From contig NC_019962.1 of the NCBI RefSeq assembly GCF_000230735.2, forward strand, positions 930,001 to 994,000: DNA of 64,000 bases, in the 5' to 3' direction. A program made the translations under genes and the position numbers. The notes beneath the pieces were generated by a model. It searched no databases, had not been told where the DNA came from, and worked only from the letters and a program-made list of their open reading frames with translations. Numbering within the stretch: position 1 is the first letter of the stretch; every line of letters begins with the position of its first letter. This DNA comes from Natrinema pellirubrum DSM 15624. Lineage in GTDB: Archaea > Halobacteriota > Halobacteria > Halobacteriales > Natrialbaceae. This document shows positions 2,381-48,037 of the stretch, piece after piece.

Positions 2381-5300
2381 CTATCCGGTAGTCTCGTTTC
2401 CGGCGTCTCCGGTCCCCTCACCGCCGAGGGCGGGTCCGTTAGCTGACGGTCCGTTCGTCTCGGATCTCGGCTCCTCAGCCGCCTCGATCACCACCGACGC
2501 CTCGTCGTCGTCGGTCGCGACCGTATGCGTCGACGTGCCCTCGGGTATCGGCGACGTGAACGGGATTTCGGCCGACTGGCCGCCCGCGAGCGTCACGGTC
2601 GCCTCGGCGAGCGGCCGCCCATCGACGCTGTAGGTCACCGTCTCCGTCCCCTCGAGATCCCCCCGGTTTTCGACGGTCGCGGTCACCGTCACCTGCTGGC
2701 CGGGCTCGCCGCTCGCGGGTGCGGCAAGATCGGTCACTGCGACCGTCGCCGGCGCACCGCTCTCCTCGACGGTCACAGTCCTCTCGGCGGTGTCGTTGTC
2801 GCTCGACACCGCGAGCGTGTACTCGCCGGGCTCGAGCGCCCCGGTTTCGGTGTCGAACGCGACCGACCGGCTCTCGCCGGCCTCGAGCGAGACCGATTCG
2901 GTGTCGACGACGGTCCCGTCGATCGCGAGCGCGACCTCTTGCGTGCCCGCCTCGCCGCCGACGTTCTCGATCTCGCTTTCGACCGCGATCTCCTGTCCCT
3001 GCTCGACCGGACTGGTGATCGACGCGATCGAGACACTGAACGCGGCGGGCACGGACGCCCGGATCTCCCCGGCGGGCGGCGTCGCGACGGTCACCGGCTC
3101 CTCGTAGCCGTGGTTCGTGAAATCGGCCTGCCAGACGAGCCGCTCGTTGTCGCTCTCGGGCGTCCACTCGACGGTGAACTCGTGTTCGCCGGGTTCGAAC
3201 CCGCTCGGGGGCTCGTCGGTAGTCGTCCCCTCGACGAACTCGCTGTTCGCCGCGACCGCCGCGTCGTTGGGGTTCTCGTAGCCGAACGTCACGTTGATCG
3301 CGTCCCCATCCGCCGTGGGCTCGGTCTCCTCGACCGACAACGACGGGAGTTCGGGCCGGGCCTCGTCGTCACAGGCCTCGAGGTCCGGGTTCGGATGATC
3401 GATCGACGCGAACGGGGCCGCCTCGGGCGAACTGATCCCGGAGATGTAGGTCCCGAAAGTGCCGTAGTCGGGAACCTCGACGGTCACCTCGTCGCCGTCG
3501 GCCGTGACGTTCCGTTCGTCGCCGATCTCGAAGACGATCGTCCCGTCGAAGGGGGCCTCGACGTTCTCGCCGGCGGTGACGAAGTCCTCGATGATGGTGT
3601 TTCCGAAGCCACCGGAGGTGTAAAAGCCCGTACTCGCCGCGACGGTATCGCCCGCCTCGAGGTCGGCCTCGACGACCGCCCGCGAACAGTTCGTGAACTC
3701 GACGTCGAAGTCGGGGACCGCCCCGTCGACGGTGTAGGCCACCTCGTCAGTCTCGATCGGCGTGCCGTCGTCGGCCGCGACGACCGACACCTCGAGCGTG
3801 GCGTTCGACTCCAGGGGCGGCTCGAGGGCGATTTCCCGCGGCCCGATCGTCTCGTTCGCCGCGAAGCGCTCGGTCTCCGCGAGTCGGCCCCCGTTCTCGT
3901 CGGCGACCGTCAGCACGTACTCGACCGAGGCGTTGGCCGAGGTGACTGTCAGCGTCTCCCCGTCACCAGTCTGGTCGGCCACCGAGAGGTTCGCCGTCGG
4001 CTCGCCCGGCTCGGGCTCGACGACCGTGTACTCGATCGAGTCGTTCGCCAGGACCGCGTCGTCGCTCACGGCCCGAACGGAGACATCAACGGTCGCGTTC
4101 GACTCCAGCGGCGGCTCGAGATCGATCGCCGTCTCCGCGACCGTCTCGTTGGCCTCGAACAGTTCGCTATCGACCCGCTCCCCGTCGTACTCGGCCGTCA
4201 CGACGTACGGCACCGTCGCGCTCGCCGCGTCGATTGCGAGGGACTCGCCCTCGCCGTCCTGGTCGTCGACCGACAGCGTCGCTTCGGGCTCGGTGGTGCC
4301 GTTCGCGACGGTGTACTCGATCGTCTCGTTCGCGAGCGTCGCGCTGTCTTCGCCGACGACCGCTACCGCGACGCTGGCGTTCTCCTCGAGGGGCGGCTCC
4401 AGCTCGAGCGTGTAGTTTGTCACGTTCTCACCGGCCGCGAACGGCTCGCTCCCGGCGGTTTCGTTGTCGTACACCGCATTCAGGCCGTAGGGAACGGAGG
4501 CGTTCGCCTCGTCGATTGTCAGCGTCGTCCCGTTGCCCGTCTGATCAGCGACCGACAGCGTCGCTGCTGGCTCGGCGGGCTCGTCGGCGACGGTCACGAA
4601 CGCGCCGTCGAGTACCGGCGCGCCGCCCGCGGAGACGTAGGGCACGTCCTCCTCGCCGTCGGAGTCGGCGTACTCGAACGCCTCGTCCCCGTCGGTGTCG
4701 TGGTGGACGACCGCGACGAGCGGGCCGCTCTCGTTCAGCGACTCCTCGAGGTCGACGGTCACGTTCTCGTGATCACCGGCCTCGAGGTAGCTCGAGACGC
4801 CGATGATCGCGTCGGGATCGGCGTCGACGGCGACGCCCTCGTAGACGGCGACGAACCCGCCCTCCGAGAGCGAGACATCGTCGATGGTGACCGCGTCCCC
4901 GTCGCTCTCTTGGTCGGAGAAATCGATCGATGCGGTTCCCTCGATCCGGTCGACCGTCTCGATGCGCTGCTCGACCTCTATCTCGACGTGCTGGCTGATC
5001 ACCGTGATGTCGGCGGTATCCTCCGAGACGGCGTAGGCGGTCGCATCGGCCGCGGCCTCCTGTGTTATCGTCTGGAGCTGCGTAATACTGATCCGCTGGG
5101 ACTGGACGACGCGAGCGGTCTCCGACGCGGCACTGCTGGCTGCCACCTGGATCTGCGTGATCGACGCGTCCTGTGCCTGAACGAGGGCCCCGCTGGCACC
5201 GCCGTACGCGAGCCGCTGGACCTGCGTCACGTCGACGAGTTGCGTCTGGCTCACTGTACCCTGACCCGCACCGAACGCGGCGGCCTGCACCTGTTCGATC

Positions 5301-6649
5301 GTCACCGCCTGGCGCTGCACGGCCGACGCGATCGCGCCCTCCGCGGCGCCGACGGCGGCGTACTGCACCTGCGTGACCGACACCGACTGGCGCTGAATCA
5401 GTACCCCGCCGGCGCTCCCGTCCGCGGCTGCCTGAATCTGCTCCACGCTGGCGTCCTGACTCCCCGAGATCGCACCCTTCGCAGCGCCGGAGGAGGCCTC
5501 CTGTACCTGCGTGATCGAGATCCGCTGGACCTGCTCGATCCGGGTCGACTGCACCTGCTTCAGCGATCCCCGACCCGCGCCCCGGGCCGCAGCCTGCGTT
5601 CCCTCGACCGACACCCGTTGTTTCTGGACGAGTGCGCCTTTCGCCGCGCCCGCCGCGGCCTTCTGGATCTGCTTGATCGTCACCCGCTGGCGCTGCTCGG
5701 CGTCGACGCGCTGGCCCCGTCGCGATTCGCTCCGCTGGTCCTGTCGCACGTCGACCGTCTGTCGCTGTGCGAGGGCGGCGGTCGTACTCCCCTCGAGCGC
5801 GCCGGCGGCGGCGCCGGCCGCGGCGTGCTGGACGTGGTCGAGGGTCACCCGCTGGCGTTGTTCGACCGAGACCGACTGGTACTGCGTCAGGACACCGTAG
5901 GCGGCCCCCTGTGCGGCCTCTTGGATCTTCGGCACCGCGCCGACGTCTTTCGCGCCCGCTTCGCTGGCCGCGCCGGCGGCCGCACCCCTAGTGGCCACCT
6001 GCAACTGCTCGACGCTGACGTGCTGACTCTGGGCGACCGCACCGTGTGCGGCCCCCCAGCTCGCGCTCTGGAGTTGGGTCGCGTTGGCCGACTGCGACTG
6101 CGAGAGTGCCCCGCCGGTCGCGCCGCCGACCCCGTACTGGATCTGCGTGACGTTGACTGACTGTTGCTGGAGCAACGTGCCGTGGACGGCCCCCGCCGTC
6201 GCCGCCTGTACCTGTTCGGCCTCGACGTTCTGGGACTGCGACACCGACTGGCGCGCACCCTCGAGCGCCGCCGCTCGCTGTGCCTGTGTCACCTCGATCC
6301 CCTGTGACTGGACGAGGGCGACTCCCTCGCTGACCCCCTCTTCGACGGCCTCCTCGCGATCGCTCTGGGCCGCCGCCGTGTTCGTCCCGCCCGCGTCCGT
6401 GTCGGTTTCCGTCTCCTCGGTCGCTCCGGGCGGCGGCAGCCGTATCGGATCGAACCCGTTTCCGCCCGCCGCGTCATTCCCGCTCTCGTTCTGAAACTGT
6501 GCCTGTGCCTCGGGACCGGGTGGCGACGTGGCGTCCGTCTCCGTTCCCGCGTCGTCCCCGACGATCCCCCCGAGCAGCGGCACGGCGACGACGCTGGCGA
6601 TCATCGCGGCAGCGATCACCACGACCGCGGCGATCCGGCGGCGGCTCAT
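2381..6649 (-). CDS. Large secreted surface protein: Gln-rich 23-residue repeats, DUF7282-type and CARDB-like domains
   Basis: A 1,422-residue exported protein. Residues 1-31 are a signal peptide or N-terminal anchor (MSRRRIAAVVVIAAAMIASV). A disordered acidic linker follows to about residue 100. Residues ~111-535 hold about fifteen repeats of roughly 23 residues with consensus A-L-x-Q-x-Q-x-V-x-V-x-Q-x-Q-x-A-A-x-G-A-A-x-G. Residues ~572-690 look like a DUF7282 domain. Three tandem ~100-residue beta domains follow (each starting ATLSVADQ or similar), then a domain with NCSRAVVEADLEAGDTV. Two CARDB-like modules lie near the C terminus. It ends in a low-complexity tail without a transmembrane helix or an evident PGF-type sorting signal. 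Many N-x-S/T sequons suggest glycosylation. Function is unknown; adhesion or matrix formation is a reasonable inference. Confidence 0.9.
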   Translation of the reverse strand: MSRRRIAAVVVIAAAMIASVVAVPLLGGIVGDDAGTETDATSPPGPEAQAQFQNESGNDAAGGNGFDPIRLPPPGATEETETDTDAGGTNTAAAQSDREEAVEEGVSEGVALVQSQGIEVTQAQRAAALEGARQSVSQSQNVEAEQVQAATAGAVHGTLLQQQSVNVTQIQYGVGGATGGALSQSQSANATQLQSASWGAAHGAVAQSQHVSVEQLQVATRGAAAGAASEAGAKDVGAVPKIQEAAQGAAYGVLTQYQSVSVEQRQRVTLDHVQHAAAGAAAGALEGSTTAALAQRQTVDVRQDQRSESRRGQRVDAEQRQRVTIKQIQKAAAGAAKGALVQKQRVSVEGTQAAARGAGRGSLKQVQSTRIEQVQRISITQVQEASSGAAKGAISGSQDASVEQIQAAADGSAGGVLIQRQSVSVTQVQYAAVGAAEGAIASAVQRQAVTIEQVQAAAFGAGQGTVSQTQLVDVTQVQRLAYGGASGALVQAQDASITQIQVAASSAASETARVVQSQRISITQLQTITQEAAADATAYAVSEDTADITVISQHVEIEVEQRIETVDRIEGTASIDFSDQESDGDAVTIDDVSLSEGGFVAVYEGVAVDADPDAIIGVSSYLEAGDHENVTVDLEESLNESGPLVAVVHHDTDGDEAFEYADSDGEEDVPYVSAGGAPVLDGAFVTVADEPAEPAATLSVADQTGNGTTLTIDEANASVPYGLNAVYDNETAGSEPFAAGENVTNYTLELEPPLEENASVAVAVVGEDSATLANETIEYTVANGTTEPEATLSVDDQDGEGESLAIDAASATVPYVVTAEYDGERVDSELFEANETVAETAIDLEPPLESNATVDVSVRAVSDDAVLANDSIEYTVVEPEPGEPTANLSVADQTGDGETLTVTSANASVEYVLTVADENGGRLAETERFAANETIGPREIALEPPLESNATLEVSVVAADDGTPIETDEVAYTVDGAVPDFDVEFTNCSRAVVEADLEAGDTVAASTGFYTSGGFGNTIIEDFVTAGENVEAPFDGTIVFEIGDERNVTADGDEVTVEVPDYGTFGTYISGISSPEAAPFASIDHPNPDLEACDDEARPELPSLSVEETEPTADGDAINVTFGYENPNDAAVAANSEFVEGTTTDEPPSGFEPGEHEFTVEWTPESDNERLVWQADFTNHGYEEPVTVATPPAGEIRASVPAAFSVSIASITSPVEQGQEIAVESEIENVGGEAGTQEVALAIDGTVVDTESVSLEAGESRSVAFDTETGALEPGEYTLAVSSDNDTAERTVTVEESGAPATVAVTDLAAPASGEPGQQVTVTATVENRGDLEGTETVTYSVDGRPLAEATVTLAGGQSAEIPFTSPIPEGTSTHTVATDDDEASVVIEAAEEPRSETNGPSANGPALGGEGTGDAGNETTG
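5045..6319 (-). repeat. Fifteen-fold Gln-rich 23-residue protein repeat (coding)
   Basis: These bases encode residues ~111-535 of the surface protein. A clean unit is ALSQSQSANATQLQ followed by SASWGAAHG. Most units keep two Q-x-Q pairs separated by an alternating V-x-V strand and then an A-A-x-G-A-A-x-G segment. Some units are extended (an Arg-rich stretch near residues 305-325, and a Lys/Ala insertion near 228-243). The units have diverged from each other, so the array is old rather than a recent DNA duplication. Confidence 0.88.
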
Positions 6650-9440: not shown

Positions 9441-11256
9441 TTAGCCACCTTGTCGGAGAGATTGACTGACCGCCCGGACGAATGTCCTGGCGGTCACGAC
9501 CGGCGGCGACCTGATCTCGCGGTCTGTTCCGAGCTTCACCAAGTAATCGGTAAGCCTCCAGAGATTGTACAACAATGCTGCGAACGTGAAGCTGAACAAC
9601 CGAACACGGTAGTCTTTTGAGGACGTCTTGGGAAGAAACGCTTTCACCGACTTGTACTGATTTTCGATATCCCAGCGTCGGCTGTAGCTGTTGGTGACGT
9701 GCATGATCTCCTCGGGAGCGACGTGATCACGGTTGGTCACGAACACGGCATAGCTTCCGTCAGCTTCCTCATCAGTCGCTGGTACGTACAGGAACTCTGC
9801 AGTGTGGTGGAGTTCGCCATCAATGGCGAACGGAACATCGTTCTTGACAGCGGCGTCAACTCCTTCTTTGCTCTTGATTTTCTTGATCGCCTCGTAATCG
9901 TCTTCATACTTCGGTACTGGCGTCAGGTACACAAGCCCGCGGTCGTGAATCGTTGCGTACACCTCGTTACTGTAGAATCCCCGGTCTAGGAGCACTTCGT
10001 CGAGATCGACGTACTGCTGGGCTGTGTCCAGCAGTACGTCAACTACATCCGCCTTCGAATCGGCTGGCGCATCTTCCGGTTCCCACGCAGAGCGTTCCTT
10101 GACTGGCTCGATACCCAGGATGATTGGGACATCGTTCCCGACGATCGTGATCGTCGCGAACGTATACCCGTGCTTGATTTCACCGTCTTCTTTGTACCCG
10201 CTGACCATCGGCGGATACTCTGCTTTCGGGATTTTCTCGTCCTTGTCGATCCACGGCCAGACGTGGTAGGGAACGTGTGTGAAGTCGACGGCCGCCACGA
10301 CGTGGCGGTCGTCGAAGGGATCCTCGTGACGAATCGTCTTGAGGATATTTTCGGTCGCCGCGTTGAACGAGGCCATCACAGCCTCTCGATACAGCTCAGT
10401 GAACGCGACGATATCCTCGATCTGCAACTCCTGAACGGAGCGCGTTACTTCCTCGTCGGATGGCGTCGCAAACTGCTTGATTACTCGGAGAAACGTCGAG
10501 TCGTCACAGATCTCGTTCTCTTCAAGGAACCACCCAGCTTCTCCCTCTGAATGAGCGCTCCCCTGCGTGAGGCACGCGTTGGAGAACAGATCAAGGATCT
10601 GTTCATCCTCATAGACCCTGTTGTCGGCTCTATCGGAGTCGAACTCGGCGAAGCCGTGTCGGCGAGCGAGTTCGACGACCTTACTCCCGTGCTCGCGCAC
10701 GTGTGCGCGAGACACTGTCGAATCGGATTTATCGTCGTTCGCTTCTTTTTCATCCAGGTTAATTGGAATGAGTGCCTCCGAAATAACGTCGTGATCACGG
10801 GCTTCACGAGCTATTCCCTTCGCAGCGGCCTCAAGCGTGGTCTTGGTTTGCTCGCTGAATTGGTTCCAAGCGTATGAGAGATTCTGCTGAGTCGGCACCC
10901 TGTTCAAACCTAGCTGTTTCAGCAGTGCTGGACGGTTCTCAAGCCGATCTGCGACCTCGCTTTGGGCGAGGTCGTAGATCGTCTGGTAGATGTAGACTCG
11001 TGCCATTGACTCGGTTCCGAACGAGACTTTGTGCTGTTGTCGAGTGTCTGTTAGTCCATCCACGGGAATCGAGACGTCTCCAAGTACACGCCAAAGATGA
11101 TCAGCTGTTTCACAGACTTTCTTGGCGTGGATGACGATCGCCCCCGCCAAAGCGGGGGCATCGTCATCAACTGCAGGAGTGATGTTAGATGCCATTAACA
11201 GTCAGTCCAGATACTGAAACCGAAGGAGAGACTCCCCATTAGGGCACCTCATTTGG
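9287..11256 (-). mobile_element. Insertion sequence with an IS4-type DDE transposase (ends approximate)
   Basis: The block is less GC-rich than the flanking host genes and holds one transposase gene. Its ends are not certain. A short inverted match CCAAAT/ATTTGG lies at 9287-9292 and 11251-11256, with weak similarity continuing inward, but I see no target-site duplication. The boundaries should be read as best guesses. Confidence 0.5.
9441..11195 (-). CDS. Transposase, IS4-type DDE
   Basis: A 584-residue transposase that cuts and joins its own element. The DDE residues are visible as D304 (AAVDFTHVPYH), D404 (LLDRGFYSN) and E511. The IS4 family signature Y-x2-R-x3-E-x6-K is complete at residues 504-518 (YSRRWDIENQYKSVK). 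The N-terminal ~300 residues are longer than in the common ~400-residue haloarchaeal IS4 transposases. No frameshift or internal stop is present, so it may be active. I cannot name the exact IS. Confidence 0.88.
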   Translation of the reverse strand: MASNITPAVDDDAPALAGAIVIHAKKVCETADHLWRVLGDVSIPVDGLTDTRQQHKVSFGTESMARVYIYQTIYDLAQSEVADRLENRPALLKQLGLNRVPTQQNLSYAWNQFSEQTKTTLEAAAKGIAREARDHDVISEALIPINLDEKEANDDKSDSTVSRAHVREHGSKVVELARRHGFAEFDSDRADNRVYEDEQILDLFSNACLTQGSAHSEGEAGWFLEENEICDDSTFLRVIKQFATPSDEEVTRSVQELQIEDIVAFTELYREAVMASFNAATENILKTIRHEDPFDDRHVVAAVDFTHVPYHVWPWIDKDEKIPKAEYPPMVSGYKEDGEIKHGYTFATITIVGNDVPIILGIEPVKERSAWEPEDAPADSKADVVDVLLDTAQQYVDLDEVLLDRGFYSNEVYATIHDRGLVYLTPVPKYEDDYEAIKKIKSKEGVDAAVKNDVPFAIDGELHHTAEFLYVPATDEEADGSYAVFVTNRDHVAPEEIMHVTNSYSRRWDIENQYKSVKAFLPKTSSKDYRVRLFSFTFAALLYNLWRLTDYLVKLGTDREIRSPPVVTARTFVRAVSQSLRQGG

Positions 11257-36439: not shown

Positions 36440-36514
36440 GAACGGAGTGTCGAGCAGTATCGATTAGTGGTTTTGGGTTCGAGACGACGGTCGATCGATC
36501 GTTCGGTCGTCCCG

Positions 36515-37246
36515 TTACTGGTCGTCTTCGTCCTCGGGTTCGGCGAGTCGTTTTTCTGCTCTCTCTCGATCCTCCGGATAGCCGACGTCGATACGCCAGC
36601 CGTCCATCCGGATCGCATCGATCGTCCGTCCCGACTGGATGAGCAAGTCGATCGCGTCCGGTAGCTCGTACTCGCCGCGGTCGGAGGGCTGGACGAGATG
36701 GCAGGCGTGGAATATCTCCGGCGTGAACGTGTAGAACCCCGTCATGACGAGGTTCGACGGCGGGTCATCCGGTTTCTCCGTTACCTCGACGATCTCGCCG
36801 TACTCGTTGGTATCGAGGACGCCGTAGCGGGAGGCCTCGTCGTACGGGACCTCTTCGACGAGGAAGGCGGCATCGGCCCGTTCCTCCCGTTGGCGGTTGA
36901 TCACGTCCCCGAGGTTCGCCCGGAAAACGTTGTCTCCGAGCATGAGCATGAAGTCGTCGTCGACGTGGGGTTCCGCCTGCAGGATGGCGTGAGCGAGTCC
37001 GAGTTGCTCGCGCTGGTGGGCGTACGTGATCGGAACGCCGCGGTACTCGTCGCCGTAGCGCTCGATGATCTTCTCTTTCATGTAGCCGACGACGAGGACG
37101 AACTCGGTCGCACCGATCTCGATGAGGTTGTCCATGACGTCCTCGATGAGGGGGGTTCCGTCAACCTCGACGAGAACCTTCGGCTTGTCTTCGGTAAGCG
37201 GCCGGAGGCGGGTTCCTTTACCTGCAGCTAAGATAACTGCTTGCAT
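36515..37246 (-). CDS. aglF: Glucose-1-phosphate uridylyltransferase, AglF-like
   Basis: A 243-residue cytoplasmic sugar-nucleotide synthase that joins UTP and glucose-1-phosphate. MQAVILAAGKGTRLRPLTED is the nucleotidyltransferase signature with Arg and Lys for the triphosphate. The metal-binding Asp is in MLMLGDNVF, and VTEKPDDPPSNLVMTGFYTF is the usual sugar-binding region. It supplies UDP-glucose to the neighbouring aglM product. A thymidylyltransferase function cannot be excluded from sequence alone. After it the composition becomes AT-richer. Confidence 0.88.
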   Translation of the reverse strand: MQAVILAAGKGTRLRPLTEDKPKVLVEVDGTPLIEDVMDNLIEIGATEFVLVVGYMKEKIIERYGDEYRGVPITYAHQREQLGLAHAILQAEPHVDDDFMLMLGDNVFRANLGDVINRQREERADAAFLVEEVPYDEASRYGVLDTNEYGEIVEVTEKPDDPPSNLVMTGFYTFTPEIFHACHLVQPSDRGEYELPDAIDLLIQSGRTIDAIRMDGWRIDVGYPEDRERAEKRLAEPEDEDDQ

Positions 37247-37752
37247 GTCAGGTATAGTTCAACCCGCTGGTCATATATCTTCGGGAACGCCTCATGTAAG
37301 GTTACGTATTGTCCTCGACGGGCAGGTGAACGGCTAAGCGAAGAATTGCCACGTACTCTCGTCCAAAACTCCCGTGAGATCGCGGGCGGTAGTGAAGGCT
37401 ACGCTCGATGATGAGGACGACGGTCATCAGGAGTGTGGTACCGAGCCGGTAAATGAGTTCATCGACCGATATCTCGAGGTTGACGAGTCGTCGGGATACG
37501 CGGCACACTGGCTTGACGCGCGCGGTTGGGATGGTGTACCCACTACATCTCTCGAGTCGCAAGGGTGCGAGTGTGCGGAATACGGTGGTATCGGCATCGC
37601 TATCGGTCCAGATGAGGCGTACAGGACGACATATCGGATCGGATGTTGATATCCCTCGTATGGTTCGGTATGTGATCGTCACCTGAACCTCTTCTCTATA
37701 CCACTGGCTGTACTCTGGCGAGCAGTATCTCGGACGAGTGACTTGAAGTGGC
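37247..37752. other. Gap at the left edge of the accessory glycosylation island
   Basis: About 500 bases without a convincing gene. A minus-strand open frame of about 174 codons crosses it (37302-37826), but its Arg/Cys-rich, acid-poor composition is not haloarchaeal and it overlaps the flippase gene. It may be a decayed gene or plain intergenic DNA. Composition drops toward AT compared with the aglF gene. Confidence 0.45.
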
Positions 37753-39204
37753 TCATGTCGAGATAATCGGCAGTTTGACGGGCAAGTTGCGATCGATGGT
37801 TGCGCGAAACTGCGCGGAAATCGCAAACAGAACTAGGAAGTACACGGTCGCACCAAGGCCAGTCAGGGCGACGACAGTGGCGGCGTTGTGGCCCAGGAGA
37901 CGATAGGTATTCTCGATCCACAATATGCCGTAGACAACGGCCCCCATCAGGAGCGCAGCAATCCACTGGCGGGCGATTTCGCGATACGGGGTTGCGAAGT
38001 TGATGAGGGTCTTGAGCATATAGTAGGCGACCACGAGGCTGATGGTGACCGAGAGCGCCGTCGCGACTGCGGCACCGATCCATCCGTAGACATAAACGAG
38101 GACGACGTTGAGTGCGAGGTTGGCGACAATGAAGAGGGCATTGATGCGAAAGGAGAGATCCGGTCGATCGATAGCGTTGAGGGTGGTGAGGATTTGGTTC
38201 TGATAGGCGTAAAAGAGGGCTGCAACGATCAAAATGAGAAGCACTCTGGTCCCTTGGGTGAACTCATCACCATAGATCCGAAGGAGGCGTTCATCGAGCA
38301 GCATACCCCCAACGAAGCCGGGTATTAGCACGAATCCAGTATAAGAGAGTACGTCCTCGACAAGCCTAGCGACCTCTTGTGGATCGTGTTGAGCGGAAAG
38401 TTCACTCATTTCCGGAAAGACAGTAGCGCCCATGGAACTGCTGAAAAGAATGAGAAACATGGCTATATTCCATGCGATCGAATAAATCCCAATCAATGCA
38501 GACGGGACGAAAAATCCCAGCACTATAACGTCAGTGTAATTGAACATCCTCGACTGAAGCCCACCAAGCCAAGCGTACTTGGCGTAGTCGAATAAGCTCT
38601 GAAAGTGCCGTTTTCGTGGAACAGAGATTGCGTCTATATTTCTGATTATAACCAACCCACCAATCGTGAAAACGAGCAGGTAGCCAGCCGCATAACCGAG
38701 GAATAGTCCCGTGAGTCCTAATCCAGCAGCCACCGCACTGATCTGGAGCACGGCTCTACTACTGGTTCGCACTGGGGAGAGGATTCCCTGTAGATGGACA
38801 AGGTGGAGTCCCTGCAAAACCGATGAGATAATCGACCAAGAGAGTGTAACGAAAAGAAGTAAGAAAATGTAGACTGTAGATGTATGACCGATGTAGCTAT
38901 TAACATATGGACGAAAGATAAGTAGACCGATAGTGAGTATCACGAACAATATCCCGACAAAGAGGATACCAGCCACAGCGTACTGTTCTCTTTCTTCGCC
39001 CTCACTGACCCGTTTCGTGACTGCTTCTGACACTCCAACCTTCCCGGCGATCGCTAACCATGAAACGACGCCGAGAACAAGATAGTACGTTCCCAGTGGG
39101 TCCGCACCGAGTAGTCTCGCAAAATAAATGGTCGCGATGAAGCCGAGAATTGATGTTACTACTCGCGATAGGAAATAAATTATCGAAGTCTGGCCGATTT
39201 TCAT
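37753..39204 (-). CDS. Oligosaccharide flippase, Wzx/MATE-like
   Basis: A 483-residue membrane protein with about 14 hydrophobic segments. The opening IIYFLSRVVTSILGFIATIYFARLLG is typical of polysaccharide flippases of the MVF superfamily. Such proteins move lipid-linked oligosaccharides across the membrane; in Haloferax AglR is proposed for a similar task with dolichyl-phosphate mannose. Codon use and composition are AT-richer than in aglJ, aglM and aglF, suggesting transfer. A 36-base gap separates it from the decarboxylase-like gene upstream in transcription. Confidence 0.87.
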   Translation of the reverse strand: MKIGQTSIIYFLSRVVTSILGFIATIYFARLLGADPLGTYYLVLGVVSWLAIAGKVGVSEAVTKRVSEGEEREQYAVAGILFVGILFVILTIGLLIFRPYVNSYIGHTSTVYIFLLLFVTLSWSIISSVLQGLHLVHLQGILSPVRTSSRAVLQISAVAAGLGLTGLFLGYAAGYLLVFTIGGLVIIRNIDAISVPRKRHFQSLFDYAKYAWLGGLQSRMFNYTDVIVLGFFVPSALIGIYSIAWNIAMFLILFSSSMGATVFPEMSELSAQHDPQEVARLVEDVLSYTGFVLIPGFVGGMLLDERLLRIYGDEFTQGTRVLLILIVAALFYAYQNQILTTLNAIDRPDLSFRINALFIVANLALNVVLVYVYGWIGAAVATALSVTISLVVAYYMLKTLINFATPYREIARQWIAALLMGAVVYGILWIENTYRLLGHNAATVVALTGLGATVYFLVLFAISAQFRATIDRNLPVKLPIIST

Positions 39205-39240
39205 AAATATTGTATCTTATTTGGGATTACGAATAGGGTG

Positions 39241-40176
39241 TTACTCTCCGAGATCGTCTATAGTCTTCTGAAGCCCTTCCTGTATATCAATTGTAGGATC
39301 CCAGTCAAAAAGGCGTTCTGCCTTGCTCACATCTGGCTTTCTTTGTGTTGGATCGTCTTCGGGAAGTGGTTCGTATGTGATTCCGCTATCTGAATCACAT
39401 ATCTGTAATACAGTTTCGGCCAAAGCCTGTATACTGATCTCGTTTTGTCCTCCGAGGTTCACGACGTCCCCTTTCATTCCACCACCATTCATTACTTTCA
39501 GTATACCATCAACCATATCGTCTACATAGCAGAACGTTCTGGTCTGATTCCCGTCTCCGTATATCGTGAGATCTTCCCCCTGTAGGGCTTGTGAAAGAAA
39601 TGTCGGAACGACTCGACCGTCATCAGGACGCATTCGCGGCCCATACGTATTGAATATCCTTACCGTTCGAACATCCACGTCGTATTCGTTATGATATGCC
39701 ACCGTTAGCGTCTCACCGAACCGTTTGGATTCGTCGTAGCAACCTCTCGGACCACGGATATTGACGTTACCATTGTATGTCTCGGGTTGCGGATGGACCT
39801 CGGGATCGCCGTACACTTCGCTCGTACTCGCGAACAACATTTTCGCGTCATGTTCAACTGCATGCTCGAGGAGATGCTTTGTCCCTTGCGTGTTCGTGAG
39901 TGCGATCTGTACGGGGAACTCTGTGAAATCTGCGGGAGAGGCTCGAGACGCTAAATGATAAATCCGATCTGCTGGTGGGAGTTCTGGCAATTTTCGAATA
40001 TCTGCCTCAATTATCCGAAATCGGTTGTGATCCCGAATCTGACTTACGTTGCTATCTTGGCCACTGCCAAAATTATCTACACAAATCACTTCTTGCCCTG
40101 ACGCAAGTAATTCTTCACAGAGATGGCTCCCTAGGAATCCTGCCCCGCCTGTGACGATCGTAGTCACTTCAGACAT
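39241..40176 (-). CDS. NAD-dependent epimerase/dehydratase, UDP-glucuronate decarboxylase-like
   Basis: A 311-residue short-chain dehydrogenase-type enzyme. The Rossmann motif is [16 protein letters not shown]. The catalytic Tyr and Lys are in [12 protein letters not shown], a form typical of UDP-glucuronic acid decarboxylases (UDP-xylose synthases). [19 protein letters not shown] and [13 protein letters not shown] are also typical. It could use the UDP-glucuronate made by AglM. A dTDP-glucose dehydratase or another epimerase is possible but less likely. The start [10 protein letters not shown] was chosen because the fold begins there; the frame extends 26 codons upstream. Confidence 0.85.
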
Positions 40177-40507
40177 TGAGTGGAAGTTTCTTGCCGAGAG
40201 TAAAACCGTAACGGTGATCTTCTGATATTCCCCTCCCAAAATGGAGTCTGACAATAATGTTTGTTTTATTCATTATTTTATATAAACTATTAACCAAAGC
40301 ATAAAAATCCATTCAATGATTCATAGATGGAATCGGTTAATGGGCTACAAATATAATAAAAGTATATAATAATTATCGGATTAGTACCTGATATTATATA
40401 TTAAATATGTCTCTAATCGTAGTCTGAATGCCGAAGTTGTACTTTAGCATGACCTCAATGGGGTGAGTCGGAAAACCTAATCAGCGATCGTCATCAATGA
40501 ACAACAC
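40177..40507. other. AT-rich intergenic region inside the island
   Basis: About 330 bases, strongly AT-rich, with long A/T runs around 40255-40400. I see no gene, RNA or clear repeat. It probably holds the promoter of the decarboxylase-like gene (reading to the left) and the end of the sulfatase-like gene's transcript. Confidence 0.45.
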
Positions 40508-41956
40508 TTATTTCATATACCCCATCTGTTCAAGATGCTCCATCGTACTATCTGAGAGTTCTTCGTTACCCGTTTTCTTCCTTTTTAGATCCCCATGGTG
40601 GCTGGTTATAATATCTCGATATCTTTTGATGTCGCTAGAATCACCAGCGAATTTTTCTTGCTCGGGATACCAGATGAGCTTTTCATCAGAAGAAGCATAG
40701 AGAACGAATTGCTTCTTTGGTGGGAGATCAGACTTCGAAATATCAAGGGTATCTACTGCTTCCCAGAGATGATCAATCGGTTCGGAATTATAATAGGTGT
40801 ATGCAAACTGTCGTTCTTCTTTCAGTAAATTTATACTATTTGTTTCGGGGAATTGCGTATCTGAAAGACTGAGAATAGTAGCATAAAGGTCAATCAATGA
40901 TACTGGTTGCTTAATTCTACCTGTTGGTAGATTTCCTGTTGGATCACGAATTAACAAGGGAACACGAATCAGTGAGTTAGCCACCGAAAAGTGGTGTCCA
41001 AAAGTTCCGTCTTCACGAAAATTATCTCCGTGATCTCCAAAGACGATCAATACTGTATTCTCCCACTTCCCCTCTTCCTGGAGTGCCTTGACTAATTGTT
41101 TGAGAAGATCATCGCAATATCGTATACCACCACGATAGAGATTTCTAAACATTTCAACTTCGCTTTCTGGGACATCCGTCTGTCCAAGAATAGATTTGAT
41201 TCTATTGATCCGATTTCCATAGATCTTCCACTGCCATATTGCGCCGTTCTTTGATAGAGCCCAATCCCCCTGATCAGTGAACATTTGATGGTAAGGTGCC
41301 GGTGGAGTGTATGTCCAATGAGCCTCATTGAGATGAAGGAACCAACAAAACGGAGCTGATATGTCTTGAAGCGCCTCCGTCGCTTCTGATATCGTCTTAG
41401 CACCACCAGAGCAAAACTCGATGTCACTTGAGTTACGAGACCACTCTCGATATAGCTTCCACCTGAAATGATGTTGCTTAACGTATTTCCACTGGTCGTC
41501 AAGGTATCGCAAGAGTTCCTTGCTATTTGAGGAGTACTTTTCTACGCTCTCCGCAATACGAACTTTCAGTGGATCGGAAGTATCTGTATCGTCTCCATTT
41601 TCTCCGTTTTCTAACCTCTCAAAGCCCCGAAGAATACCTGCAGTATTGAGCCAACCATTTCGGAAAAACGCTGTCGTGGAATATCCGTTCTTGGTGAGTA
41701 GTTCTGGAAACGTCGGATGATCTCCCAGTACATTTCCTTCTGCAAGAATCCCGTGTTCAGGTGGATAAAGGCCTGAAAAAACAGAAGTATGTACCGGAAG
41801 AGTCCATGTAGAAGGGGTGATTGCGTTCTCATATACAGTGGATTCGTCTGTAAGTGATTCTAAAAAAGGTGTTGTAGGTTTTGAATCGTCAAGAAAAGAA
41901 CAGAAGTCGGCTCGGAGACTATCGATTGAGACGCAGACGATATTCGGTGGTTCCAT
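40508..41956 (-). CDS. Sulfatase-like protein (alkaline phosphatase superfamily)
   Basis: A 482-residue enzyme-like protein. NIVCVSIDSLRAD carries the first metal Asp and ITPSTWTLPVHTSVFSG the putative nucleophile region. VFGDHGDNFREDGTFGHHF carries the second metal set (D-H plus H). The fold covers sulfatases, phosphoglycerol transferases and phosphoethanolamine transferases. The classical sulfatase C/S-x-P-x-R motif is not present, so the reaction is uncertain. There is no signal peptide; the protein is probably cytoplasmic. The C-terminal EHLEQMGYMK resembles a tail often seen in haloarchaeal members. Composition is AT-rich, as for its neighbours. Confidence 0.83.
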   Translation of the reverse strand: MEPPNIVCVSIDSLRADFCSFLDDSKPTTPFLESLTDESTVYENAITPSTWTLPVHTSVFSGLYPPEHGILAEGNVLGDHPTFPELLTKNGYSTTAFFRNGWLNTAGILRGFERLENGENGDDTDTSDPLKVRIAESVEKYSSNSKELLRYLDDQWKYVKQHHFRWKLYREWSRNSSDIEFCSGGAKTISEATEALQDISAPFCWFLHLNEAHWTYTPPAPYHQMFTDQGDWALSKNGAIWQWKIYGNRINRIKSILGQTDVPESEVEMFRNLYRGGIRYCDDLLKQLVKALQEEGKWENTVLIVFGDHGDNFREDGTFGHHFSVANSLIRVPLLIRDPTGNLPTGRIKQPVSLIDLYATILSLSDTQFPETNSINLLKEERQFAYTYYNSEPIDHLWEAVDTLDISKSDLPPKKQFVLYASSDEKLIWYPEQEKFAGDSSDIKRYRDIITSHHGDLKRKKTGNEELSDSTMEHLEQMGYMK

Positions 41957-42033
41957 ATCTGGTCTCTAAGAGATGTCTTATAATGAACTTTCGGTCTCAT
42001 CAGGCACTGGTTGACCGATACGGCCTGCCCCTT

Positions 42034-43275
42034 TCATACTTTATTTAATAATTTTTTCAGCTTTTCCGTATTCACATGGATATCTCGGTGAACCGTTTCC
42101 ACATCCATACAAGCATATGTATGATTCAGTGGCTGAGAAATAGTATAGAAAAGACCAGGATTTATACTCGAAGTTTTTGGCCCTAATAGCTCGATCACAG
42201 TGGCATCAGAAGCAAACAGCATATTAATTAGTCCTGCACCATGTGCTCCGATGATTATTTCTGCATTAGAAAACAACCTTATTTGCTCCGCTAGAGAATA
42301 TTCTGAAAGAATATATTTTTCAAAGTCATACTCTGAGAGGGTGGCCATAACCTCCTGTTCATTAAGAGTCCGTCGAGCGGTTGCATCTTCGCGCGAAATA
42401 TAGATACGAGGCCTATCTTTTTCTCTTGTATTGTTTGGTGTATTTTCCCCGATCCGATCTAATATCCACTTGAAGTTCTTCTTCGACATAATTGGGGGCC
42501 GGTTCCCAGTTTCTGAAGATGCTTCTGACCGATATCGAGAAAGAATATATCGGTCTGCGTGAACTGGTTTTCCAGGCCACTCAACGATATTATAGTCTCC
42601 AAATCCAAGTAACTCGAGAGAATCTCGTAACCACTCGGGGGGATCCGCTGGGATCATTAGTGTGACTTCGTCCGCCCCTGGATAGTGTTGTAACCCTTCT
42701 AAGCGAGGGAGATAGTTACCAAACCAGTGATAGTAATTTTTGTCATACGGTCCGACTAAAGACAGGAGCGTATCAAACTCTTTCTTTTTTTGGAAGGCAC
42801 TTCGTCCACTTGGTGTAATTCCATTCGTCCCAGCCGATAGTAACCCGATCAGTATGTTTTTAGATGACAGTCCGGTTTCTGGTAAATATCCATATTCACA
42901 GACTGGAATACCATAAGACGAGATAATGGTCGTATTTTCTATTTCGTATACGGCTGGAGGTTTCGTTTGGACGCTCTTTGGATAGTTTTTCCGAAAAGCT
43001 TGTGCATAGTCTTCAGGCGTTTCTGGGAGAATCGGTAGGTCTAACTTGTACGTTTCAACCCCTTCATATTGATTAAAAAATTTAGTGCTAGAAGCCCCGG
43101 ATAATTTCTCTTCAGGCACCCTTTCCTCTTCTATTTTGTCTTCAAAAACCCATGATATTTTCCGATTTAATATATACCTGGTAGCACTTGACAGGGTAGA
43201 AGAGAAACCCGCCTGATGTATGCTTCGCTTTATCCTCGGCCAGTGTTCAAGCATACTAATCCGTTCCACTTCCAT
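42034..43275 (-). CDS. GT61 (DUF563) family glycosyltransferase
   Basis: A 413-residue glycosyltransferase-like protein. The C-terminal half has the GT61 signature: LSEYSLAEQIRLFSNAEI followed by IIGAHGAGLINMLFASDATVIELLGP. A pattern of Trp/Tyr and charged segments around DKNYYHWFGNYLPRLEGL marks the N-terminal donor-site region. The family includes xylosyl-, glucosaminyl- and other transferases. In this island it probably adds a sugar to a surface glycan, and with the decarboxylase-like gene nearby xylose is an attractive but unproven donor sugar. Composition is AT-rich. Confidence 0.83.
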   Translation of the reverse strand: MEVERISMLEHWPRIKRSIHQAGFSSTLSSATRYILNRKISWVFEDKIEEERVPEEKLSGASSTKFFNQYEGVETYKLDLPILPETPEDYAQAFRKNYPKSVQTKPPAVYEIENTTIISSYGIPVCEYGYLPETGLSSKNILIGLLSAGTNGITPSGRSAFQKKKEFDTLLSLVGPYDKNYYHWFGNYLPRLEGLQHYPGADEVTLMIPADPPEWLRDSLELLGFGDYNIVEWPGKPVHADRYILSRYRSEASSETGNRPPIMSKKNFKWILDRIGENTPNNTREKDRPRIYISREDATARRTLNEQEVMATLSEYDFEKYILSEYSLAEQIRLFSNAEIIIGAHGAGLINMLFASDATVIELLGPKTSSINPGLFYTISQPLNHTYACMDVETVHRDIHVNTEKLKKLLNKV

Positions 43276-44277
43276 ATTTGAGTGTATTCTGGTTCCTTAT
43301 CGGAGATCGACTGAAACGGCACGTCTAGTGAGCGCTTCCGCTGGTATCTCTCTGTTGAGTAATTAGTGGGGTCACTGTTTGTGTAGTCCTATCAAGATTC
43401 AAGCAACTCTCTACTACTCCCTGGCTATTCACTCTGAATTATGGCAACTATCAACGGTTCTTTGGAGTGAAAATCACTTTTGTCAGGTTTTGATTAATGC
43501 AGTTGAGTTGACTGTCCAACGTTGAGCAAGCGAAGAACCACGTTTCTCCCGAAGAGGGAACCAGTTGCGTGAAGCCGGACGGTGAACCCTCCGAAGTTCG
43601 GCGTGGAAGAACCGATGCGGTCCCGACAGTCCGGTTCCGGGTCTCCTCTCCCTGTCCGAAACAGCGGACGAAAGCCTTCTCTGAGGGCCATCGACGGTTC
43701 GCCGATTTTTCCACGGTGACGAGCGACAGGATCGAGAGGCGTGCTTGCTACGTTAGTACTCTGAAGCCAACTTACGCGAGGCAGTTCTATCCGTCGCCGA
43801 CCTGGAGTTGAGTCGCAATAATCCAACTGCACCACACATCCCGGTGAGTCGTAGTCATGACTGACATCTTCGAGTACTGGGAGCGAGCCATGGTCTAAGA
43901 TATCCCGATCGGCATCGTTCAGCAGGTTGTCTGTGACTAATGTGGCTGAACGATCGCGTCGAAATCCTGGGCGATGTCGATGGAAGGTGATCGGTTTTGT
44001 CATCGCTCGTGGTGACTGCTATGCGTACGGCGAACCGTGGTCCGAGACGGACCGTAACTGTTGGCTCGTTAATATCTGACTCACCTCGTCGTACGACGCC
44101 AACATGCGGTCGGAACTCGAGCTGTCGGATGCAAAGATTACCGCTTGGAGTTCGGGGTAAGAATTCTACGTTGCTTTATTAAATTCTAATAGGTTCGCTC
44201 CAGAATACCAGTTGATTGTCCAATTCTGGTTTCGAAGAGAAATAAACCTACGGCGAGCCTGGCGAGTTGACAAAAAC
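43276..44277. other. One-kilobase stretch with gene debris
   Basis: No intact gene is supported. A minus-strand frame at 43494-44003 has a short protein-like part, VTDNLLNDADRDILDHGSLP and VLEDVSHDYDSPGCVVQLDY, then a non-acidic continuation. This looks like a fragment of a former gene joined to unrelated DNA. The DNA between 43480 and 43820 is GC-richer than its surroundings and may be a relic of a mobile element. The right end meets the intact insertion sequence. Confidence 0.5.
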
Positions 44278-44293
44278 GAGGGTGTCATAGAAC
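44278..44293 (+). repeat. Left terminal inverted repeat of the IS5-like element
   Basis: GAGGGTGTCATAGAAC, exactly complementary to 45331-45346. It follows the direct repeat AAAAAC. Confidence 0.92.
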
Positions 44294-44298
44294 TCTTG

Positions 44299-45291
44299 TC
44301 ACACCGTGATGATCGTGCTTCCCGGATTATCTCCTCGTTCGTAGTTGGTGATCGCAATAACGAGACGCAGACACAACGACAGGAACACTTGTGCTCGTGC
44401 ATGGACGCGGCCTCGGGCGTGGACGTGCCCGAGGCCGCAGTCCTTGACTGCGTCGTTAGTTCGTTCGACGCCTGTCCGGCGGTTGTACGTCTCATCTAAC
44501 GTCGATTGCTTCAACTTCACGTCCTTGCTGTGTTCTTTGATACGGTCTTCGACCCTGTACTCTATGTCCAGTGGATCGTCGGTGTTGCGTGCGTTGTACG
44601 GGGCGATTGGCACGACTCCTGCGGTCAGCAGGTAGTCGTGCCAATCGAGTGTGTCATAGGCGCTGTCTCCAAGCATCCAGATCGGAGTGTCGACGGCGAG
44701 CGCGTCACGCGTGACGCGCATCGCCGTCTCTTCTGGCGCTTGTTTGCTCTCGGTGAATTCCGCTGCAATCGGGATCTTTGAACCAGTCGAAACGATCGTG
44801 CAGCCGTAGCCGTAGTAGTACTCTTCAGCCGTTGGATCGTAGCATTTCGACGCGTCTTGATCGGCTGGCATCGTTCTCACGTCTGTCGAATCAATCGAGT
44901 AGGTCAAGTCGAGCAGGCCCCGCAAGGCGGCCTGCTCGACGAGGTGGTCGAAAATCTCGTCGATGACGTGTTCGAGATCGGTGAGGAAACGATCGACCGC
45001 GTCTCTCGACGGCGGTCGATCGAAGCCACAGCTGAGCCAGACGACTGTGTTGTTCAGTTCTCGCGCAACCGGACGAATGCCGTAGATATCCTTGTAGTAG
45101 CAGTGCAGAAACCCACGCATCATCTCGGGTGGTTCGTGGTCTCGTGTTCGCCCCGTCTCCGCCGGGGCGAACACGTCGAATTCTTCGAGAAACTCGAAGG
45201 AGAGATGCTCGAACAGCGCTAGCGTCTCCGTCTCCACGGCATTGAAGAACGTCTCTACCGTAGGATTATCTTGCAGGGTCGCTGGGCTCAT
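44299..45291 (-). CDS. Transposase, IS5-like DDE
   Basis: A 330-residue transposase with intact frame. Acidic catalytic residues are recognisable in LTYSIDSTDVRTMP (first Asp), WMLGDSAYDTLDW (second Asp) and YNRRTGVERTNDAVK (Glu with the R-x3-E arrangement). KCYDPTAEEYYYGYGCTIVST and PIAPYNARNTDDP are typical of this haloarchaeal group. The N-terminal part includes RGFLHCYYKDIYGIRPVARE. The start MSPATLQDNPTVETFF gives full family length. The element appears able to move. Confidence 0.9.
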   Translation of the reverse strand: MSPATLQDNPTVETFFNAVETETLALFEHLSFEFLEEFDVFAPAETGRTRDHEPPEMMRGFLHCYYKDIYGIRPVARELNNTVVWLSCGFDRPPSRDAVDRFLTDLEHVIDEIFDHLVEQAALRGLLDLTYSIDSTDVRTMPADQDASKCYDPTAEEYYYGYGCTIVSTGSKIPIAAEFTESKQAPEETAMRVTRDALAVDTPIWMLGDSAYDTLDWHDYLLTAGVVPIAPYNARNTDDPLDIEYRVEDRIKEHSKDVKLKQSTLDETYNRRTGVERTNDAVKDCGLGHVHARGRVHARAQVFLSLCLRLVIAITNYERGDNPGSTIITV

Positions 45292-45330
45292 ACCACCTCA
45301 GCGTTCACCCTGCTCTCTGGTATGAGAACT

Positions 45331-45346
45331 GTTCTATGACACCCTC
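45331..45346 (-). repeat. Right terminal inverted repeat of the IS5-like element
   Basis: GTTCTATGACACCCTC on the plus strand, complementary to 44278-44293, followed by the direct repeat AAAAAC. Confidence 0.92.
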
Positions 45347-45873
45347 AAAAACGTCATTGGTTCATTGATTATCTTATTTTCACGATATCTATATCTAACT
45401 ATATATTTATTCCAATATAAAGGTTTATTTATTTATATAAATACATATCTATACGATAGAGATGATACGATATAGCGTAGCAAGCTTGCAGGTGTCTGCC
45501 CGTTAGATGAGTGGTGACGGTTCGCGGAGTGCAACGTGATTCAGTGATACATCGGTAGCGGTTGTACTAGTGTGGCAATCGTGGCCGGTTTTCCGTGACC
45601 GTTGGACAACGAACTTCCCCGATATCGAAGGTGTTTGAAAGCAGTGATCTGGACAGTTGGAACGAAATGTTATCTTTATCGGTCAATGCGGTGTCCGCTC
45701 ACGCCACACGATTCCAATTGTTACTACGCTGAGTCGTACGACTTTTGATATAGACCAATTAGCATCCTCTTTTTCAGGCTCAACTGAGCATTCCCTTTCT
45801 CAAACCGCGCTAACTAAATGATACAGCCGAGGAAATATTGTGATTGTTTTTGCTATTGTTCCACTATCTTACT
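45347..45873. other. AT-rich intergenic region after the IS element
   Basis: About 530 bases without a supported gene. The first part (45360-45480) is strongly AT-rich with TATA-like runs. The middle (45490-45720) is more GC-rich and may be old gene debris. I find no RNA gene and no clear repeat. Confidence 0.45.
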
Positions 45874-47082
45874 CTAGCTAGGGATGATCGATAGTTGCTC
45901 CGGATCAAGTTTGATATTCTGATGACGAGGGGGAGTATCTTTTTCTCTAGTAGACTCCCCTAATATTGCGTTATATCCGAGTCCAAGTGATTGTGCCAGT
46001 AAGAAGTACGTCGGGACAAACTGGTCTCCAAAAATTTCTGTGAGTGAGCATTGTGAAGAAAAGATCAAATTGATGAGTCCTGCACCATGTACACCGACTA
46101 CTTGATCTGCCTGCGAAAACAGCGAAACTTGTTCTTGGAACGTTAAATCTGTCAACTCATATGATACGAATCCCCGATCGCGAAGATGATTGAGGATTTC
46201 ATCTCTATTCTCGAGTTCTCGCCGATTGGCGTCACCGCGTGATATGAACACCTTTGATGGGTATTCTGCCTTTGGTATTTCAAGGCATTTCTCAGCTTCT
46301 TTACGAAGCCACTCACATGCTATAGGAGAGAGAATTTTATGATCCATAGTCCTGTTATTTGTCAGCTTCTCTCCTCGACGATTTGATGGTATCACTAGCC
46401 GTCGTATTCTCAACTCATCTTCCGGATTCCAAAATACGAGATCGTTATCATATCCAAACAGTCTCAGGGATTCAATCATCCAAGAGGGAGAGTTTTTAGG
46501 CAGGAGAATTTTCGGCTCTCTCCCTGTTATCTGACTATATTTCTCTATACCCTGTATTTTCGTTATATAATTATGTACCCATACAAAATAGTTCACAGAC
46601 TCATTCTCTGTTCTTACTGTGGATGTGAATGGAACGACCGTATTATGATCATAGCGATTGTTTTCTTCGTTCAGTTTATTTTTGATGCTCTTAACGAGTA
46701 ACTTTCTAAGCGATATCCGCCAAACTAGTTCGTATTTAACCGATTTATCAGAGTCTAGAATAGGCTGATAATTTTCTGTTGTACAGATGCCTGACCCGTT
46801 CAATACTCGACCCCCTCTGATTTCTGCTATAAATGGTTGTTTAAAATGATGTGAGTCACCATATGTATAATGGTCTGAAAATTCATCCGCTGAACTCACG
46901 CAGACTGTTTCTGGTGAAGAAAACGTATACACGCTGTCTGCACGGTTCCGCAATTCTTCACGGGTTAGGATCGCTTTATCAGAGATGCTCCCAAGAAGAG
47001 TGTTGTAGTAGTCTTCTACGACTGAGTGAACACCCGCCTTTTTTGAAATACTCTCTATATGCTTTTTATAAATCCCTTTCAT
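45874..47082 (-). CDS. GT61 (DUF563) family glycosyltransferase
   Basis: A 402-residue relative of the GT61 protein on the other side of the insertion sequence. The signature is seen as LTFQEQVSLFSQADQVVGVH, directly followed by GAGLINLIFSSQCSLTEIFG. VFISRGDANRRELENRDEIL parallels the ISREDATARRTLNEQEV of the other copy, so both share an ancestor but have diverged widely. It starts one base after the stop of the alkaline-phosphatase-like gene, showing an operon pair. Composition is AT-rich. The acceptor sugar is unknown. Confidence 0.83.
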   Translation of the reverse strand: MKGIYKKHIESISKKAGVHSVVEDYYNTLLGSISDKAILTREELRNRADSVYTFSSPETVCVSSADEFSDHYTYGDSHHFKQPFIAEIRGGRVLNGSGICTTENYQPILDSDKSVKYELVWRISLRKLLVKSIKNKLNEENNRYDHNTVVPFTSTVRTENESVNYFVWVHNYITKIQGIEKYSQITGREPKILLPKNSPSWMIESLRLFGYDNDLVFWNPEDELRIRRLVIPSNRRGEKLTNNRTMDHKILSPIACEWLRKEAEKCLEIPKAEYPSKVFISRGDANRRELENRDEILNHLRDRGFVSYELTDLTFQEQVSLFSQADQVVGVHGAGLINLIFSSQCSLTEIFGDQFVPTYFLLAQSLGLGYNAILGESTREKDTPPRHQNIKLDPEQLSIIPS

Positions 47083-47083
47083 A

Positions 47084-48037
47084 CTATGATAGGTATCCTA
47101 GATCTTTGAGTCGTTGTTCCGGTGTCGAACTTGTTTTCGTTTCCGGTTTTTCAACCTCCGATTCGCCAGTATCCGTAGCTTCTGTAGTTGTCCAAGGTAC
47201 TTTTCTCACATTCGGATGTGGAAACGCCGCAGGATGAGTGTACATACCCCACTCTCCGAACAGTTCACCATGGTCTGCCGTGATCGCGACCCGTGAAGCA
47301 TCTATGTTTTCGAGTAATCGCTCAACAGAATCAAGTACCTCCCGTAGGTTCTCTAGGTATGCATCGTATATCTCTTGAACGGTTATCTCACCCTCTTTGA
47401 GGCTGTCGAATGGTGCCTTATGTATTTCTGGGAGAGATGCTCCCTCACGTTCGTGTATATATGGTTCGTGCGGTTGCATATAGTGGATAATCGTTCGAGA
47501 TGAGTCGCGATTCCGGCCGGTATAGATCGCGGCATCGGTGACTTCTTCGGGAAGCGGTGTCGTACCGATGTCTCCCCCTGTTGTCCCAACCACGGGAAGA
47601 TAGGTGTTAAAATCAGAGTCGCGTGGCAGGTCCCGTTCAAGCAAGCTATCTAGAAATCGCTGATCATGCCACCACGAGCCCTTTGTAATCGTCCAATACT
47701 TCCAGTCTGGCTCCTGCTCAAACATCTGACTTATCCACCCATTTCCACTTATTAGAGACACGTCTGACACATCCCTATCAGCAAATGTGTGTAGATACCA
47801 CTCCTTCGAGGTTGATCCAACAGAGGTCATTGATTCTACTCCATCTAAAAAATCATATTCCTCAGAAACGGTCTGTAGCGCATCAACTCGACAAGCATCC
47901 AGTACAATTAATACATCCCATTCTCGTTCGAAGACATTTTCCCCAAATTGGATATGGTTTTGGAATTTGAGGGCGGGGTACATATATAACCCGTATAGGA
48001 ACTTCCCAAAAGATTCTCCCCGGCTAAATTGCCACAT
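47084..48037 (-). CDS. Sulfatase-like/alkaline phosphatase superfamily protein
   Basis: A 317-residue protein starting at MWQFSRGESFGKFLYGLYMY. DVLIVLDACRVDALQTV carries the first metal Asp with Cys next to it, and RVAITADHGELFGEWGMYTH the second metal set. Residues between them include TIIHYMQPHEPYIHE. The C terminus EQRLKDLGYLS is like other haloarchaeal members. An ATG 33 codons earlier (48136) is possible, but a TATA-like ATTATAAATTA falls inside that extension. The reaction is uncertain: sulfatase, phosphodiesterase or transfer of a charged group to a glycan. It is followed at once by the GT61 gene. Confidence 0.8.
   Translation of the reverse strand: MWQFSRGESFGKFLYGLYMYPALKFQNHIQFGENVFEREWDVLIVLDACRVDALQTVSEEYDFLDGVESMTSVGSTSKEWYLHTFADRDVSDVSLISGNGWISQMFEQEPDWKYWTITKGSWWHDQRFLDSLLERDLPRDSDFNTYLPVVGTTGGDIGTTPLPEEVTDAAIYTGRNRDSSRTIIHYMQPHEPYIHEREGASLPEIHKAPFDSLKEGEITVQEIYDAYLENLREVLDSVERLLENIDASRVAITADHGELFGEWGMYTHPAAFPHPNVRKVPWTTTEATDTGESEVEKPETKTSSTPEQRLKDLGYLS

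Follow-up and report, generated by a model that had tools for sequence, protein, structure and literature searches.

The window analysed here, a 64,000-nucleotide stretch of the Natrinema pellirubrum DSM 15624 genome, carries near its start a gene for a putative exported protein with a glutamine-rich repeat array towards its N-terminus. The layout of the gene, in window coordinates, is as follows.

2381..6649, (-) strand: whole gene, putative exported protein of 1422 aa (open reading frame; ortholog at the same site in Natrialbaceae)
6569..6649, (-) strand: hydrophobic segment at the N-terminus, aa 1-27, either a signal peptide or a signal anchor (Kyte-Doolittle scan)
6353..6568, (-) strand: low-complexity, fast-evolving spacer, aa 28-99 (highest dN of all regions in five more distant pairs)
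5015..6352, (-) strand: array of 15-17 repeat units, each about 23 aa long, aa 100-545 (autocorrelation, regular expression, HMM, conservation, AlphaFold2)
5072-6316, (-) strand: HMM units of the array, aa 112-526 (repeat HMM)
5510..5566, (-) strand: 31-residue unit with an extra octad Q-x-Q-x-x-x-I-x, aa 362-380 (core spacing)
4592..4933, (-) strand: DUF7282 domain, aa 573-686 (Pfam PF23951, E = 1.3e-38)
3731..4570, (-) strand: three tandem domains of ~95 aa rich in Asn-glycosylation sequons, aa 694-973 (self-alignment, sequons)
2792..3037, (-) strand: CARDB (Ig-like) domain at aa 1205-1286; another copy lies downstream (Pfam PF07705, matching in two stretches, E = 1.7e-12)

Repeat structure of the array

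The units follow the consensus L-x-Q-x-Q-x-V-[STND]-V-x-Q-[IVL]-Q-x-A-A-x-G-A-A-x-G-A, and A, Q, V and G make up more than half of the array residues. Over aa 100-545 the identity autocorrelation peaked at lag 23 (0.234 vs. 0.111 in shuffles, z = 9.2), with smaller peaks at lags 46, 54, 2, 8 and 49. A strict regular expression located 15 Q-x-Q-x5-Q-x-Q cores in the protein, and a repeat HMM recognized 17 full or partial units. The Gln-rich repeat described in an initial annotation of this DNA is therefore real, and the interval given there, 5045-6319, is correct. The period of about 23 residues proposed in the same annotation holds as the main autocorrelation peak but is not strict: core-to-core spacing equals 23 in 359 of 550 cases among relatives, and spacings of 25 (+2), 26 (+3) and 31 (+8) recur. 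In the +3 variant the insertion is placed after the second Gly of the unit, the +8 variant contains one whole additional Q-x-Q-x-V-x-V-x octad, and the array of the window is itself irregularly spaced at aa 228-320. Tandem Repeats Finder detected no DNA-level tandem array within the repeat region; the units are thus old and kept by selection, and recent tandem duplication is ruled out.

Several other features were noted in the window. The sequon-rich triplet at 3731-4570, between DUF7282 and CARDB, has no Pfam model of its own. A low-GC island at 36500-49400 (about 39-55% vs. 65-70%) looks like an acquired surface-glycan cluster; judged by eye from translations, its genes include a sugar nucleotidyltransferase, a flippase-like protein, an NAD-dependent epimerase, two sulfatase-like and two glycosyltransferase-like proteins. 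Transposase-like open reading frames lie at 9441-11195 and 44299-45291, the former with a 99% identical copy in Natrinema hispanicum (locus L064). Short 15/30-base DNA tandem repeats at 55723-55816 encode an acidic, Thr-rich stretch.

Distribution, constraint and domain partners

The array matched 103 of 125 Natrialbaceae genomes and 26 of the 29 genera. The majority of these matches span the whole array collinearly, unit by unit, at 58-91% identity, and a minority are shorter paralogs of lower identity; the closest named relative is that of Natrinema thermotolerans (91%). At the level of the order, 87 of 293 sampled genomes matched, belonging to five families, and in a phylum-wide sample of 393 genomes the matches were confined to members of the same order. 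A scan of 84,980 species, which rests on two short peptide patterns and could miss remote relatives elsewhere, returned 52 loci, all from Halobacteria (Natrialbaceae genera, Haladaptatus, Halorussus, Halosimplex and Halorarius). The haloarchaeal character of the repeat was thus borne out in every search, none of which found relatives outside Halobacteria. Copies also occur on Halobaculum and Halomicrococcus plasmids. A phage or plasmid origin was considered and rejected: there was no match in phage records or viral contigs, and the only plasmid matches were two from haloarchaea.

At almost all Natrialbaceae loci the gene has the bioY/ECF transporter genes on one side and an unchanging set of small genes on the other; members from other families have lost this neighbourhood. 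The array stays constant among members and its C-terminal partners vary, with different domains in the four other Halobacteria families. Natrialbaceae combine it with DUF7282 and CARDB, Halorussus with DUF7282, Halosimplex with a NosD-like beta-helix, Halorarius with TSP3, CAP and a lectin-like domain plus a hydrophobic tail at the C-terminus, and Haladaptatus with Thr-rich tails. One relative of 227 residues (L120) consists of little beyond the repeats. Two paralogs from Natrinema-family genomes (L108 in G052, L109 in G008) have a few N-terminal repeats and a Lys-rich linker, which is unusual in haloarchaea, and carry three isolated QSQSVDVSQSQ modules in Gly/Ser-rich sequence without the Ala/Gly half. 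A search of 195 genomes for isolated QSQS modules returned mainly the same repeat family.

In a Kyte-Doolittle scan the sole hydrophobic stretch of the window protein is N-terminal, and such a single stretch is shared by nearly all relatives. Five relatives (L108, L109, L113, L114 and L120) have twin-Arg starts, signals whose normal cargo is folded proteins. We infer from the N-terminal sequence that the protein is exported and belongs to the haloarchaeal cell surface, as the initial annotation had proposed.

Between orthologs dN/dS is about 0.17-0.30 for the array and about 0.27-0.58 for the C-terminal part, and among the more distant pairs no region exceeds the spacer (aa 36-99) in dN. Judged by these ratios, the array is under purifying selection and more strongly constrained than the rest of the protein. 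The paired Gln residues pointed out earlier are conserved and include positions invariant across relatives. Some repeats additionally fix residues at positions that vary elsewhere in the array:

6182..6184, (-) strand: His156 at the normally variable repeat position 21 (present in 100% of the 29 sequences from Natrialbaceae and 91% of the 11 from elsewhere)
6044..6058, (-) strand: Trp198-His202 at the normally variable positions 17 and 21 (conservation in 40 sequences)
5897..5920, (-) strand: EAAQGAAY, aa 244-251, a near-invariant unit (fixed E/Q and aromatic residue at variable positions)

His202 is invariant in 40 of 40 sequences; Trp198 is invariant in Natrialbaceae and mostly Tyr in other families. 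By helix (see below), His156 falls on the second, Trp198 and His202 on the fourth, and Glu244, Gln247 and Tyr251 on the sixth. Because some repeats fix residues where others vary, also across families, the N-terminal half of the array may contain a site for a partner or ligand.

Neither Pfam nor NCBIfam has a model for the array, and a profile search to E <= 10 found no sequence relative in the PDB. The C-terminal part shares its domains with haloarchaeal modular surface proteins containing DUF7282 (PF23951) and CARDB (PF07705), but the N-terminal array sets the protein apart from these. Our literature search yielded no paper on DUF7282 and none on Gln-rich haloarchaeal surface repeats, in agreement with the earlier remark that no function had been described. 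We conclude that the repeat defines an uncatalogued family of haloarchaeal surface repeats, one that is ancient and under strong constraint.

Predicted fold and competing readings

Two AlphaFold2 jobs were run. For aa 91-575 of the window protein (40 sequences), the best model (pLDDT 85.2, pTM 0.85) contains a single helix of ~16 residues in each repeat and lacks strands of three residues or longer; four of the five models were poor, with pLDDT of 52, 49, 47 and 30 for the others. For a distant Haladaptatus member (26 sequences) the model scores were mediocre (63, 60, 40, 34 and 32). The same helices were predicted over the first ~290 residues, with block means mostly 70-95 for residues 1-260, and confidence was lost after residue ~290, near the strand-like segment IVQIQTINIVQIQVV. 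Tandem units of packed helices, a feature of alpha-solenoids, are predicted in two relatives, with one helix per unit.

Sequence statistics agree with the helices in part. Position 8 is S, T, N or D in 85% of units, compared with 27-34% at positions 4, 6 and 10, and looks like a helix N-cap; Val/Ala at position 7 and Ile/Val/Leu at position 12, which is strictly hydrophobic, match the pattern of a capping box plus hydrophobic staple. The variable positions 10, 14, 17, 21 and 2 fall along a single stripe when placed on a helix, and with the +3 insertions after Gly22 the predicted helix is longer by about a turn. A 100-degree periodicity of the helix window was not significant (p = 0.24), but a period-2 alternation runs through positions 1-13 (permutation p = 0.003). 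Residues 1-13 have propensities of 1.17 for strand and 1.09 for helix, residues 14-23 of 0.87 and 1.08, respectively. The Ala/Gly half is very probably helical. The Q-x-Q-x-V part is very probably extended, being a linker in the AlphaFold models and possibly a short strand.

The relative orientation of the units was approached in several ways. Partial matches to up-down helical bundles suggest that consecutive helices may run antiparallel. Covariation between neighbouring repeats, with scores inflated by orthology, showed no clear pattern favouring parallel or antiparallel stacking, and an odd/even alternation of repeats, taken as a sign of a two-layer helical stack, was rejected after permutation (combined p = 0.08 over whole units and 0.30 over the helix). 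Neighbouring repeats avoid matching charges at position 10 (10 observed against a null of 44, sd 7.6), as do repeats three apart, and repeats two apart favour them; since the sequences are not independent, this pattern is only a hint at odd/even inequivalence. N-glycosylation at position 8 was also considered and rejected (p = 1.0 in other families, 0.16 overall); within Natrialbaceae orthologs, whose sequences are not independent, N8 was associated with S/T10 (p = 2e-4).

With both models the best structural match was to designed flat helical repeats (FD15, PDB 8ugc; DHR), which share the regular stacked helices. The likeness is a general one only, as the Z scores of 8.9 and 10.0 fall short of the ~13 that helical repeats reach by chance and the rmsd is 9.1-9.5 Å; unlike these designs, the array is predicted to have one helix per unit instead of a hairpin and is rich in Gln. 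Foldseek TM-scores against the query were at most 0.22, and no solved structure was a convincing match. The fold searches brought up TAL effectors, designed helical repeats, AmtB fragments and DXR helical domains, none of them above the chance level for helical repeats. The array had no Pfam match to a named helical family (HEAT, TPR, ankyrin or others) at E <= 5, and its profile matched no PDB chain at E <= 10. As far as sequence and models indicate, the array resembles alpha-solenoid repeats in kind and matches no named family.

The initial annotation suggested a possible amyloid-like beta-solenoid with a curli-like spacing. In the rival reading built on it, a curli-like beta-solenoid or cross-beta fibre, the Q-x-Q-x-V-x-V-x-Q-x-Q half would form strands stacked with Gln ladders, and the protein would polymerise into amyloid-like matrix fibres. 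The attractions of this reading are the period-2 alternation of residues 1-13, the palindromic QxQxVxVxQxQ core, the exact 8-residue insertions that preserve the alternation, and the isolated QSQSVDVSQSQ modules of L108 and L109. Moreover, Congo red and thioflavin T stain the biofilms of Haloferax volcanii, although the amyloid protein is putative and its gene only suggested (PMC4180959), and conserved Asn/Gln side-chain networks stabilize both CsgA and FapC (PMC12822426). Against this reading, both AlphaFold2 jobs returned helices and no strands, despite the fact that AlphaFold2 models did serve to build a curli fibril model (PMC12822426). The period-4 AAxGAAxGA half is ill-suited to a strand, and the twin-Arg signals of several relatives may point to export of a folded protein. 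The array resembles CsgA (Curlin_rpt, PF07012) in being presumably exported, in its unit length (about 20-23 residues across the two), in its conserved Gln and in its proposed surface role. It differs in having no sequence match, a predicted helical fold and an Ala/Gly segment where curli has Asn/Gly turns, and in that CsgA is a small free subunit and the array consists of 15-20 units fused to other domains. No curlin repeat was found in the array (no Pfam family at E <= 5) or in the genome (PF07012 at E <= 1, with the E. coli control detected). The best PF03783 match in the genome, a 90-aa frame with E = 0.23, lies below the cut-off for CsgG, which is a weak test of the mechanism because haloarchaea are not expected to have an outer-membrane channel. 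Membership in the curli system was rejected on the combined grounds of curlin repeat, CsgG and predicted fold. The archaeal sheath proteins SH of Methanospirillum (PMC10593813) and MspA (PMC6242892), reportedly amyloid-like and extracellular, offer a precedent by description. The curli-like proposal is not supported: the best models are all-helical, position 8 looks like an N-cap, and no curlin repeat or credible CsgG was found. A confident helix in place of strands, which would speak against it, is seen in the best model (pLDDT 85), but the other models are poor and residues 1-13 do alternate. An amyloid structure is unlikely but still alive.

Similarly improbable is a mixed beta-alpha solenoid, comparable to LRR proteins in architecture only, with residues 1-13 as a parallel strand and residues 14-23 as a short helix on the other face. 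It fits the strand and helix propensities of the two segments and explains both periodicities. However, neither AlphaFold2 job predicted it, and the strictly hydrophobic position 12 between Gln 11 and Gln 13 suits a helix better than an exposed strand face; no LRR model was among the Pfam matches of the array at E <= 5. We regard as equally doubtful a surface polymer with a new fold, in which a Gln-ladder strand and a Gly/Ala-zipped helix, neutral for assembly in saturating salt, would make the protein the missing amyloid-like or scaffold component of the haloarchaeal biofilm matrix. A disordered or coiled-coil low-complexity linker without specific fold, suggested by the biased composition (A, Q, V, G) and the low confidence of several AlphaFold models, is very improbable given that each repeat retains its own residues over 65-90% identity, that many Gln, Gly and His are invariant, that dN/dS is lower in the array than in the rest of the protein, and that a heptad pattern is absent.

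A candidate scaffold of the haloarchaeal surface

The reading we prefer, at a probability of roughly 0.47, is that the array forms a Gly/Ala-zipped helical rod on the cell surface that bears variable outer domains; it is probably a helical scaffold. On this reading, a secreted protein would carry the array as a rigid domain of helical repeats at the end closest to the cell. Each 23-residue unit would consist of a ~16-residue helix (from position 9 to positions 1-2) with its S/T/N/D cap at position 8, followed by the extended Q-x-Q-x-V linker. The Ala and Gly of AAxGAAxGA would permit very close packing of adjacent helices, and the invariant Gln at both helix ends could bond across to adjacent repeats. 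Stacked in this way, the units may build a rod or plate that keeps the outer domains (Ig-like, DUF7282, lectin, beta-helix or Thr-rich stalk) off the membrane.

Charge sets the array apart from the remainder of the protein. Among 67 homologs, it contains 7.6% D+E, 6.0% K+R and 17.9% Gln, in contrast to 25.6% D+E and 1.6% K+R in the sequence that follows. An exported domain of neutral charge is unusual in haloarchaea, and the array may owe its stability to packing, to association with itself or to contacts with the surface layer. The contrast between a charge-neutral array and a very acidic remainder hints at association with itself or with the surface; at near-zero net charge in saturating salt, the proposed rod could attach in either manner.

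The uncatalogued family is near-universal in Natrialbaceae at one fixed locus and common to at least five families of Halobacteria. Dye staining suggests a putative amyloid in haloarchaeal biofilm, the genetic basis of which is not established (PMC4180959). The array is a candidate for a structural role in the cell surface or biofilm matrix of haloarchaea. As a Gln-rich, neutral domain that departs from the acidic rule for exported haloarchaeal proteins, it may provide a handle on protein assembly at saturating salt.
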